This document shows positions 52,066 through 60,835 of a stretch of DNA of 64,000 bases, piece by piece. A model generated the notes under the pieces. The model was not told where the DNA came from, did not search any database, and saw only the letters and a program-made list of their open reading frames with translations. A program made the position numbers and the translations under genes. Location: positions 3,658,001 through 3,722,000 of the forward strand of contig NZ_CP070326.1 of the NCBI RefSeq assembly GCF_016917755.1, written 5' to 3'. The DNA is from Streptomyces noursei. Lineage in GTDB: Bacteria; Actinomycetota; Actinomycetes; Streptomycetales; Streptomycetaceae. Positions within the stretch are counted from its first letter, which is position 1. Each line of letters starts with the position of its first letter.

Positions 52066-54963
<2,898 letters not shown>

Positions 54964-55023
54964 CGTCCTCAAAGCTCCATCGATCGTCTCTGCCTGCGGC
55001 TGCTGCGGACACGGTTTCTGCGG

Positions 55024-55052
55024 AAACAAAAATGCCCCTCACTCAGGAGGGG
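55024..55052 (-). terminator. Intrinsic terminator (attenuator) before leuS
   Basis: On the minus strand CCCCTC, a 6-base loop and GAGGGG are followed by CATTTTTGTTT, a rare T-tailed terminator in this GC-rich genome. It lies 61 bases before the leuS ATG and 56 bases after the leader peptide stop, exactly where an attenuator should be. A competing hairpin (CCGACC/GGTCGG) lies between the leader ORF and the terminator. Confidence 0.85.
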
Positions 55053-55107
55053 AAGCCGCGCCGATACCGACCCGGGCGACCACAGCGAAGGGCCCGGTCG
55101 GGACTGA

Positions 55108-55146
55108 TCAGCGCGGCCCGCTAAGCAGAAGGCGTACGGCACACAT
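55108..55146 (-). CDS. leuS leader peptide (leucine attenuator ORF)
   Basis: A 12-codon ORF, MCAVRLLLSGPR, with three Leu codons in a row (CTT CTG CTT). It stands before a T-tailed terminator and leuS. A TACCCT box ends 6 bases before the ATG and there is no Shine-Dalgarno, so it may be leaderless like the leuA leader. Stalling at the Leu codons would favour the upstream hairpin and prevent termination. Inferred from layout. Confidence 0.8.
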   Translation of the reverse strand: MCAVRLLLSGPR

Positions 55147-55287
55147 GGCGCCAGGGTACCGCAGGGCACACAGGGCCCGCGCCCGGGATTCGCCCCGGGC
55201 GCGGGCCCTGCCCCGTTGTCCCCGTCCCCCCGTCGGCGCGCCCATGAGGTCACGGGGCGGCGGAGGAGCGGGGGCGGGGCCCCTGCG

Positions 55288-57246
55288 TCAGGGACGGTAG
55301 GAGCTCACGTATCCGGCGCCCGGGCTGCCGACGCCGGTGACGTCGTCATAGCCGACGGTGGCCTGCAGGGAGCTGTCCTTGCCGAGGCTGCGCAGCGAGG
55401 TGATGGTGCCCTTGGCCGCGTCGACGCCGTTGGCGAAGTCGACCCGGACGACCGCCAGGTCGCGGCCGGCACCCAGCGGGTGGTCGGTCACGTCGTGGTA
55501 GGCGGCGGTGCCGTAGCGCTGGTAGATGGCCGGGTTGGCGAAGCCGATGGCGACGCCGTGCCGGGCCTGCTGGGCCAGCGCCTGGACGCCCGCGATCACC
55601 GGCGCGGCCAGGGAGGTGCCGCCGATGCGGTACTCGTCGTAGCCGAGCTTGCCGTTGGGCAGCGTCTGGGTCTGGCCGACCAGGAAGCCGGTGTTGGGGT
55701 CGGCGACCGCCGAAATGTCCGGAACGGTGCGCATGGCGTTGCCGCCGTTGGCCTTGGCCAGCGCGTCCGGGACGACTCCGCGCTGGTAGAAGGGCTGCGC
55801 GACGGCCTTGCTGGTGCCGCCGCCCGCGCCACCGTTGAAGGCGCCGGGGAAGTCGGTCCAGTCGTTGCCGTCCTTGGAGAGCACCGCCTTCTGGGTGCCC
55901 CAGCCGGTCTCCCACAGGTAGCCGTTGCCCTTGCCGACGGCCAGGGAGGTGCCGCCGACCGCGGTCACCCATGCGGAGTTCGCGGGGGTGTCGACCTGCT
56001 TGGTGCCGGTGTTGGCGACCTCGTCACCGTTGTCGCCGGAGGAGAAGTAGAAGCCGATACCCTCGACCGCGCCGCGCTGGAAGAGCTGGTCGTAGGCGGC
56101 GGCCACGTCCGGGGTCTCGTTGGCCTCGACGTCGCCCCAGGAGTTGGAGACGATGTCGGCCAGGTGCCCGTCCACGACCTTGCCGAGCGAGTCCATCAGG
56201 TCGTCGTCGTTGCAGGAGGCGGCGCCGACGTAGACGATGCCCGCGTCGGGGGCGACCGCGTGCACGGCCTCGACGTCGAGGGTCTCCTCTCCGTACCAGC
56301 CGGCCGCCTTGCAGTCGTCGATGTGCGTGTAGCCCTTCGGCAGGACCTGCGACAGCTGACCCTTGCGGTAGCGGGGGTCGCCGTTGCGGGCGGCGTAGGT
56401 GTCCGCGTCCTTGGCGATGGTCGGCGAGGCGTAGGCGTCGGTGATCGCGACGGTGACGCCCTTGCCGGTCCACTTCTTCGCCTCGTAGGCGGCGCGCAGC
56501 TGCTTGCCGGTGTAGCCCTTGATCGCGTACGGCGCCTTGCCCCCGTAGGCCGACGGCAGGCTCTCGTTGGTCCGCGACCCGTAGTACGTGGAGAACGGCC
56601 CGGAGTTGCGGAAGACGGGGGACGGCGGCGGCAGTTCGGCGGAGTGGTGCCGGGCCAGCCGGGGCGCGTTGTCCAGGCCGGTGACCGTCAGGACCGCGTC
56701 GGAGACGGACGCGGGCGCGGAGGCGGTGGCCGACGGCGCGTGGTACGTGTGGCCGTTCTTGCGGTAGTTGTGCAGGTCGGTGGCGAAGGCCCGCTCGGCG
56801 GCGGCCGCCTCGCCGGTGACCGTGACATAGCGGTCGGTGGTGCCGGTGACCGTCAGGCCGGACTTCTTCAGCCAGGCGGTCACCCTGGCTATCTGGTCCT
56901 GGGTGGCACCGTAGCGGGCGCTCACCTGGGCCGGGCTCAGGTACTTCCCGTACGCGGCGGAGTGCGGGTCGGCGACGGCCTTGGCGTAGTCCGCGAGGCC
57001 CTTGGCGTCCCGGCCGGCCAGGTAGACCCGGGCGTTGACCGCGGTGGAACCGGCGGTGGAGCCCTGGTCAGCCTGCTCGGTGGCCCACCGCGGCTTGGTG
57101 CCCTGCAGTGCGTGCCGGCCCCCGTCGTGGCCCGCGGCGTCGGCGGCCGGTGCACCGAGCGCGAGCGCTCCGGCGACCAGCGGCAGTGCCGCTGCCCAGG
57201 CCAGACCCGCGCGGGCGCGCAGTGATCTGGTGCGGCTTGCTCTCAT
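55288..57246 (-). CDS. Secreted S53 (sedolisin/kumamolisin-like) serine protease
   Basis: 652 residues from ATG 57246, with AGGGGG just upstream. Signal peptide at residues 1 to ~38 (ending near AADA), a prodomain to about residue 215 with the S53 propeptide pattern, then the catalytic domain: E320 and D324 in YGEETLDVEA, the oxyanion region, and Ser545 in GGTSLAAP. The calcium site DVTGVGSP is at the end. An acid-tolerant secreted protease activated by prodomain removal. The AT-richer 57247-57500 upstream probably holds the promoter. Confidence 0.93.
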   Translation of the reverse strand: MRASRTRSLRARAGLAWAAALPLVAGALALGAPAADAAGHDGGRHALQGTKPRWATEQADQGSTAGSTAVNARVYLAGRDAKGLADYAKAVADPHSAAYGKYLSPAQVSARYGATQDQIARVTAWLKKSGLTVTGTTDRYVTVTGEAAAAERAFATDLHNYRKNGHTYHAPSATASAPASVSDAVLTVTGLDNAPRLARHHSAELPPPSPVFRNSGPFSTYYGSRTNESLPSAYGGKAPYAIKGYTGKQLRAAYEAKKWTGKGVTVAITDAYASPTIAKDADTYAARNGDPRYRKGQLSQVLPKGYTHIDDCKAAGWYGEETLDVEAVHAVAPDAGIVYVGAASCNDDDLMDSLGKVVDGHLADIVSNSWGDVEANETPDVAAAYDQLFQRGAVEGIGFYFSSGDNGDEVANTGTKQVDTPANSAWVTAVGGTSLAVGKGNGYLWETGWGTQKAVLSKDGNDWTDFPGAFNGGAGGGTSKAVAQPFYQRGVVPDALAKANGGNAMRTVPDISAVADPNTGFLVGQTQTLPNGKLGYDEYRIGGTSLAAPVIAGVQALAQQARHGVAIGFANPAIYQRYGTAAYHDVTDHPLGAGRDLAVVRVDFANGVDAAKGTITSLRSLGKDSSLQATVGYDDVTGVGSPGAGYVSSYRP

Positions 57247-57550
57247 GTAACCCCCTGCTGTGGCGATGCGGTGCGCTGCGTGGTGACGCCGCGCCGGTGC
57301 GCCGGTGCGCGACACCTCATCAGCGGTGAATGCGTCGGATGTGACGCTCACGCGATTCGCCACTCTTTCGGTGAACCGTTCATGTCAGGGTTATGCGATC
57401 ACCAAGAAGAGCCCAAGGAACCACAAGGAACGAACGGAATCAGTCACGAGGAGCGCACTCAACTCGCCACATCAGACAGGTTGTTGACCGAATATCAGGG
57501 CAACCCAGGAAGATCCGCGTACTGCGGACCTGCCGCCTCAGAATGCACAA

Positions 57551-57585: not shown

Positions 57586-57592
57586 CATTCTG

Positions 57593-57665
57593 TGGAGCTA
57601 AGGAGAATTGAACTCCTGACCTCCTGCATGCCATGCAGGCGCTCTACCAACTGAGCTATAGCCCC
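57593..57665 (-). tRNA. tRNA-Ala (anticodon GGC)
   Basis: 73 bases: acceptor GGGGCTA/TAGCTCC with one G-T pair, D-arm GCTCAGTTGGTAGAGC, anticodon stem CCTGC/GCAGG with loop ATGGCAT (anticodon GGC, reads GCC), variable loop AGGTC, and T-arm AGGAGTTCAATTCTCCT. Discriminator A; CCA is not encoded. Identical to 60763-60835. Confidence 0.97.
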
Positions 57666-60755: not shown

Positions 60756-60762
60756 CGGGCTG

Positions 60763-60835
60763 TGGAGCTAAGGAGAATTGAACTCCTGACCTCCTGCATG
60801 CCATGCAGGCGCTCTACCAACTGAGCTATAGCCCC
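60763..60835 (-). tRNA. tRNA-Ala (anticodon GGC), second copy
   Basis: Identical over all 73 bases to 57593-57665, with anticodon GGC and no encoded CCA. The immediate flanks are also similar at the 3' side (TCCACA), but the terminators are unrelated. Confidence 0.97.

Follow-up and report, generated by a model that had tools for sequence, protein, structure and literature searches.

The leuS gene in the analysed window (the whole stretch of 64,000 nucleotides from Streptomyces noursei) is preceded by a short leader ORF with leucine codons and by an intrinsic terminator, and the arrangement is probably a ribosome-mediated attenuator in function. The reading preferred here, to which we give a probability of slightly under 0.6, is that the leuS leader is a ribosome-mediated transcription attenuator that senses the charging of tRNA-Leu, with the leucine codons divided between sensor and target. 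A leuS leader in Streptomyces is already in print, and the bare finding is a confirmation; what goes beyond it is the wider spread of the element, together with the division of codons and the abutting hairpins.

Anatomy and distribution of the leuS leader

The minus strand carries the -10 box, the leader ORF, the hairpins and leuS alike. Their order, 5' to 3', is box, leader ORF, a helix (P1) that encloses an inner hairpin (P2), the terminator (T) with its U run, and leuS:

55158-55153, minus strand: -10 box TACCCT, read from the sequence; its end lies 6 nt before the leader ATG, a spacing that fits a leaderless transcript
55146-55108, minus strand: leader peptide ORF MCAVRLLLSGPR, read from the sequence; leucine codons CTT CTG CTT
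55125-55123, minus strand: candidate control codon CTT (codon 8, the last leucine codon); its first base is 8 nt upstream of where P1 begins
55117-55107, minus strand: 5' arm of the P1 helix, GCCGCGCTGAT, with the leader stop codon inside it; from covariation
55102-55067, limits approximate, minus strand: P2, variable inner hairpin; from RNA folds
55065-55055, minus strand: 3' arm of the P1 helix, ATCGGCGCGGC; the arm ends 2 nt before the terminator stem
55052-55028, minus strand: intrinsic terminator T; from a consensus scan and covariation
54963-52066, minus strand: leuS, leucyl-tRNA synthetase of 965 aa, with Pfam leucyl editing and anticodon-binding domains

The leader ORF reads ATG TGT GCC GTA CGC CTT CTG CTT AGC GGG CCG CGC TGA, and the P1 helix is built partly from its last codons and its stop codon. 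T is a hairpin, CCCCTC-CTGAGT-GAGGGG, at 55052-55035, with CA next and TTTTT at 55032-55028; the scan found this one terminator-like site in 54900-55350, where 0.1 were expected by chance. The two elements expected of an attenuator, a short leader ORF with leucine codons and an intrinsic terminator between that ORF and the structural gene, were therefore both found. Leader-wide unusual stability, a further candidate signal, was not seen against shuffled sequences. The minimum free energy of the isolated window leader was not unusual (z = -0.04), and the case for the leader thus rests on comparison.

Four side observations concern the surroundings. The leuS frame is open 5' of its ATG up to a TTG in the U run (55029-54964), probably by chance. 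The same strand carries a gene for a Pro-kumamolisin type serine peptidase (55288-57363, minus strand) immediately upstream of the leader. Two tRNA-Ala(GGC) genes with equal scores are located 3 kb apart at 57592-57665 and 60762-60835 (minus strand). A second leucine leader, which had also been proposed for this window, is a real CTT-rich ORF at 9038-8991 (minus strand), with codons CTG CTT CTT CTT, before leuA (8904-7147).

The leader and a T run were present in all 81 leuS upstream regions of a set made up of the window and the 80 best among 460 confirmed loci (79 from Streptomyces and one from [Kitasatospora] papulosa). Across these genus loci, codon 6 was CTT in 77 and CTC in 4, codon 7 was CTG in 81/81, codon 8 was CTT in 79/81, and the stop codon was TGA in 81/81. 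A covariance model of ORF, P1 and T (R1) matched 197 of the 199 genomes of the genus and, at E<=0.01, 166 of 394 genomes of the class, from 68 of 137 genera, in a class-level search whose strict filters lost weak matches. When 40 stretches around model matches were read, leuS was directly downstream on the same strand in 39; the contig of the fortieth ends after 44 nt. At the level of the order, the leader was found in all 19 usable leuS upstream regions, 14 of them from other families (L103 was left out of this count, since its region had been taken from the wrong leuS end, the match in G037 being on the minus strand). The class-level set contained the leader in 20 of 40 leuS upstream regions, and no leader was found there upstream of leuS in families f6 and f15, nor in the f20 and f28 members of that set. 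One genome, G302, carries two different leuS genes, with a leader of its own on each (L210, L211).

The peptides are variable (MRGLLLLIGPR, MRTGLLLTEPR, MHCLLLLRLPR and others), and the leucine run is kept in nearly all. The leader ORF was parsed in 156 of 159 leaders tried, from 26 family codes; these counts, like those of P1 and T geometry below, are of leaders that were not de-duplicated. No start was parsed for L002, L009 and L181, of which L181 starts at a contig end, and the other two are intact by direct reading and were misread in the automated parsing; L218 also went unparsed in the start analysis. A TANNNT box preceded the start by 6 nt (135 leaders) or 7 nt (21 leaders) in 156/156, and because the parsing preferred box-bearing starts this figure means that such a start always exists. 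The -10-like box that had been noted before the leader ATG is thus present as TACCCT, at a conserved spacing. The original prediction named a transcription start downstream of 55108 as an observation that would speak against it; such a start is unlikely, given the conserved spacing of box and start and the leaderless homologue of S. lividans described in the available text of PMC8079986.

Sequence comparison shows conservation of both the leucine codons and the terminator far outside Streptomyces, and the predicted element is widespread in its class, with matches in half of the sampled genera. The proposal of a leucine leader with an intrinsic terminator before leuS is therefore strongly supported by conservation, which runs from 81/81 genus loci to well outside the genus, and by the covariation of the two helices.

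Leucine codons in leuS and in its leader

The leuS gene of the window uses CTG for 76 of its 76 leucine codons, and neither CTC nor CTT occurs in it; CTC makes up 457 of the 1,444 leucine codons of the other window genes and 34% of those in the sampled genes of this genome. When 480 gene calls, drawn from roughly 0.8 Mb of this genome, served as the background, leuS stood out by far as the most extreme gene (p = 3.1e-14; next gene, 1.1e-5); the calls relied on a filter of GC by position, and some starts and a few genes among them will be wrong. Its leucine codon bias ranked 1/454. The same pattern was found in 80 related leuS genes, in which 89 CTC and 6 CTT codons together account for 95 of 6,063 leucine codons (1.6%). 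Of the 19 leader-bearing families sampled beyond Streptomyces, nine likewise have a leuS that is stripped of most CTC and CTT and uses almost only CTG for leucine. Both codons are read by tRNA-Leu(GAG) in standard decoding. The nine longest of 71 tRNA matches in the genome were checked, and these included two Leu(GAG), one Leu(CAG) and one Leu(TAA). As a side observation, leuA in the window contains no CTT and 6 CTC among its 38 leucine codons, which is rather low.

The leader holds the codon that leuS avoids. CTT occupied a fixed place before P1, two codons ahead of the codon that supplies the first G of P1, in 146 of 156 leaders and 23 of 26 families, and it constitutes 1.6% of the leucine codons in sampled genes of this genome. 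In one leader, L133, the other leucine codons were lost and only the CTT at the fixed place remains. The peptide of that leader, VASQQQRLIGPR (about 98-181 of its own region, minus strand), has glutamines in place of the leucine run, with the last CTT retained. With CTT in the A site, P1 begins at base 12 when counting from the start of the P-site codon, which is approximately where the ribosome begins to unwind mRNA; when UGA is in the A site, the entire 5' arm of P1 is within the ribosome.

The CTG-only leuS may also be unrelated to the leader and reflect the gene's own history or a translational preference that applies generally, an explanation that is doubtful on balance and still a credible one. 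It would account for genus g68 of family f20 (L270 and L271, in genomes G215 and G205), in which leuS has 1-2% CTC plus CTT and no leader was found in the 500 nt upstream of the gene; another kind of control perhaps operates there. It would likewise account for the leader-bearing genes that are hardly purged, namely those of families f30, f16, f8 and f5, with one f20 gene among the unpurged. High expression, on the other hand, was ruled out as the cause of the CTG bias: the genes that we take to be rpoC, EF-G and EF-Tu, recognised from sequence or place, and rpoB, placed by search, use 34-56% CTC, so that high expression does not favour CTG here. The class Ia genes L219 and L220, taken as valS and ileS, use 27% and 34% CTC, respectively. 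Furthermore, leuS did not rank first for any other amino acid tested.

The comparison across genomes also argues against an unrelated origin. With strong purge defined as a leuS use of CTC plus CTT below a quarter of that in neighbouring genes, it was found outside the genus in 17 of 30 leuS genes with a leader versus 2 of the 19 in which no leader was detected (Fisher p = 0.002; p = 0.03 on family means), figures that are not corrected for phylogeny. G172 was left out of this comparison because no neighbour genes were found, and G302b, an open ORF, was counted apart. Thirteen of the 30 leader-bearing leuS genes outside Streptomyces were not strongly purged, and the link between purge and leader is loose, not strict. 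Of the two leuS genes of G302, one is purged (67 CTG, 1 TTG and no CTC or CTT in the part read) and the other is unpurged.

The possibility that every synthetase gene is purged of codons for its own amino acid was rejected. The thrS gene (L349) is ordinary, with rank 247/363, and L219 and L220 ranked 26/444 for valine and 30/152 for isoleucine. The alaS gene of the same genome (L351) is mildly biased, at rank 18/491 for alanine, with GCC in 77 of its 95 alanine codons versus a background of 57.5%; an AlaL leader is listed for S. lividans in the accessible text of PMC8079986.

Abutting hairpins and the proposed mode of control

The covariation of P1 and T was scored in two alignments. In A2, which has 95 rows and was fitted to the structure model, 11 of 16 pairs showed two-sided changes (6 of 10 in P1, 5 of 6 in T) compared with a mean of 3.9 after shuffling, and 0 of 500 shuffles were as high; this count includes 8 of 95 rows that are weak opposite-strand matches to the near-palindromic P1. 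Slid registers yielded only 1-4 two-sided pairs. In A1, a MAFFT alignment not fitted to structure, 4 pairs showed two-sided changes versus 1.2 after shuffling, with 1 of 500 shuffles as high. P1 was also retained in leaders whose stop codon has shifted upstream of the helix (MRAVTLLLM*; L094, L095 and L098), and it is thus not just a coding constraint.

The two helices adjoin each other and do not overlap. P1 was most often 10-11 bp long, and a search for T up to 5 nt away placed it 0-2 nt from P1 in 153 of 157 leaders, compared with 152 of 157 in a search up to 30 nt away (L002 and L209 were dropped from this geometry, and L110 is a false P1 match). The distance between the arms of P1 ranged from 3 to 62 nt over 157 leaders, which indicates that P2 is dispensable, and P2 is short or absent in other families. 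T has a GC-rich stem and, after it, a U-rich tail in most leaders; several families (f30, f35) show a weak or interrupted U tract.

The layout had been described as that of a classical attenuator. The leader ORF and the terminator of that description hold; an antiterminator that excludes T was sought as well, and its best candidate failed the controls. Under the classical three-way scheme, a ribosome at the leucine codons would mask the 5' arm of P1, and the 3' arm, freed from it, would pair with the loop of T and exclude the terminator. The candidate pairing joins GCGCGG of the 3' arm to CUGYGY of the terminator loop; 79 of 86 Streptomyces-family leaders and 10 of 11 leaders of family f21 allow all six pairs, 92% of cells pair compared with at most 75.5% in slid registers, and both an antiterminator and a terminator hairpin are said to be present in the available text of PMC1262725. 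However, the mean energy of the pairing was -6.2 kcal/mol versus -5.7 when the loops were shuffled (p<=0.05 in 1 of 119 leaders), and it was weaker than with arm and loop both shuffled (-7.1). The candidate is also weaker than T itself (mean -10.5), none of its pairs showed two-sided changes, and its register is broken in the window, f3g3, f30, f2 and the one f35 leader examined. The terminator/antiterminator pairing anticipated in the original prediction was therefore not recovered: this overlapping antiterminator, which was not borne out by the shuffle controls and whose pairing is interrupted in the window, was not accepted, and the three-way scheme is unlikely.

A pairing of the leucine codons with the 3' arm of T, which is possible in many families, was also rejected, since the triggering ribosome would block that helix and the pyrimidine-rich leucine codons pair with GAGGGG by composition. 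The hairpins might instead act on translation or RNA stability, through processing or reinitiation and not through premature termination, as the weak or interrupted U tracts of f30 and f35 and the rise in translation that leader ORFs can bring about via reinitiation (available text of PMC4833913) would allow; this is quite improbable, given the GC-rich stem and U-rich tail of T in most leaders and a T end situated 49-137 nt upstream of the first LeuS-like residue in the listed loci (L110, the false match, left out), which is far for reinitiation.

If the leader is a charging-sensitive attenuator, as preferred here, control could proceed as follows. Transcription would start at the leader ATG, as the spacing of the box suggests, and a ribosome would load on the 5' end as it emerges. 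If Leu-tRNA(GAG) runs short, this ribosome would wait at the leucine codons, mainly at the near-invariant CTT. By established ribosome geometry, P1 can stand intact at the leading edge of a ribosome that pauses at this CTT, whose first base is 8 nt upstream of the helix. The intact, abutting P1 would then hinder T from closing fully within the RNA exit channel and permit read-through into leuS, which is the weakest step of the scheme. When Leu-tRNA is plentiful, the ribosome would reach the UGA inside P1 and open the helix; the opened P1 would leave T free, and transcription would stop. The leuS mRNA, almost without CTC and CTT, could be translated in the very state that switches leuS on, which may be the purpose of the purge.

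Because P1 would stand when the ribosome waits, and read-through is wanted at that time, P1 should oppose T, and the abutment of the two helices offers a possible reason, namely that T would have no room to close in the exit channel. This antagonism is our inference. In RNAfold, P1 and T can form together, and over 66 distinct leaders the mean probability of T was 0.94-0.99 at each ribosome position tested. The modelled fold of the window itself runs plainly the wrong way, against the P1-T step: T has a probability of 0.99 while the ribosome occupies the leucine codons, which falls to 0.39 without a ribosome and to 0.01 once the ribosome occupies the stop codon, where another fold takes over.

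A more specific form of the same scheme is put forward tentatively, as a possibility that may well fail in part. Throughout the class, the leuS leader would read the charging of tRNA-Leu(GAG) through CTT and act by abutting, not overlapping, hairpins. The CTT would be placed exactly one ribosome-length before P1, and in Streptomyces and the nine purged families outside it, leuS would have been stripped of most codons of the sensed tRNA so that the enzyme can be made when that tRNA is empty. The leuS element of the class could qualify as a new Rfam family and raises the question of whether abutting hairpins can replace an overlapping antiterminator.

Comparison with known systems

The leuS case had been presented as the less familiar of the two leucine leaders. 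It was in fact already predicted in 2005, when classical attenuators were proposed for leuS of S. coelicolor and S. avermitilis (Seliverstov et al., PMC1262725), and reported in a 2021 reannotation based on RNA-seq (PMC8079986), as far as the available text of both papers goes. The latter describes LeuL2 of S. lividans TK24 as MRAVRLLLSEPR, leaderless and followed by a hairpin and a uridine stretch. The window leader resembles MRAVRLLLSEPR and sits upstream of leuS, and the closest relatives of the window's genome likewise place it in Streptomyces. Measured against the published descriptions in their available form, the present element thus involves the same gene, a near-identical peptide, a predicted leaderless transcript, and a hairpin with a U run. 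Those descriptions are of Streptomyces only; the comparison made here is class-wide and adds P1, by covariation, and the division between CTT and CTG, and the antiterminator claimed there is not confirmed. A literature search of open-licence papers returned no report of a leuS leader outside Streptomyces and no paper on the codon purge of leuS.

Two other kinds of element differ from the leuS leader as described. The LEU element of actinobacterial leuA is described, in the accessible passages of PMC1262725, as a pseudoknot whose base stem pairs the leucine codons with the Shine-Dalgarno sequence of the gene, and the leuA leader of S. lividans is said to be without a typical terminator in those of PMC8079986; the leuS element has P1 and a terminator. 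T-box riboswitches are alike in that a synthetase gene is controlled by tRNA charging. No T-box match at E<=10 was found in 54900-55350, and an Rfam search over the window brought nothing but two tRNAs to threshold; what stands before leuS is a leader ORF.

The closest parallel in principle is the leu operon attenuator of Salmonella and E. coli, which is controlled by rare CUA codons according to the available text of PMC1183508; in Salmonella, replacement of CUA by CUG in the leader lowered its sensitivity (Carter et al., cited in PMC1183508). Rare leucine codons of one isoacceptor as control codons are the shared feature. Unlike the leu operon attenuator as described there, the leuS leader has CUU as its putative control codon, is predicted to be leaderless, has a synthetase as its target and is without a demonstrated antiterminator, and its target gene is purged of the codons that the sensing tRNA reads. 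Under selective charging (Elf and Ehrenberg, in the part of PMC1183508 available), isoacceptors lose their charge unequally, and control codons are those read by the sensitive ones. The codon data fit this theory if the control codon of the leader belongs to an isoacceptor that responds to limitation; the target gene here avoids that codon. If this is true, leuS would be an unusually clean natural case of selective charging, with one codon used for 76 leucines, another that makes up a third of the sampled leucine codons of the genome, and a leader fixed on a third codon.
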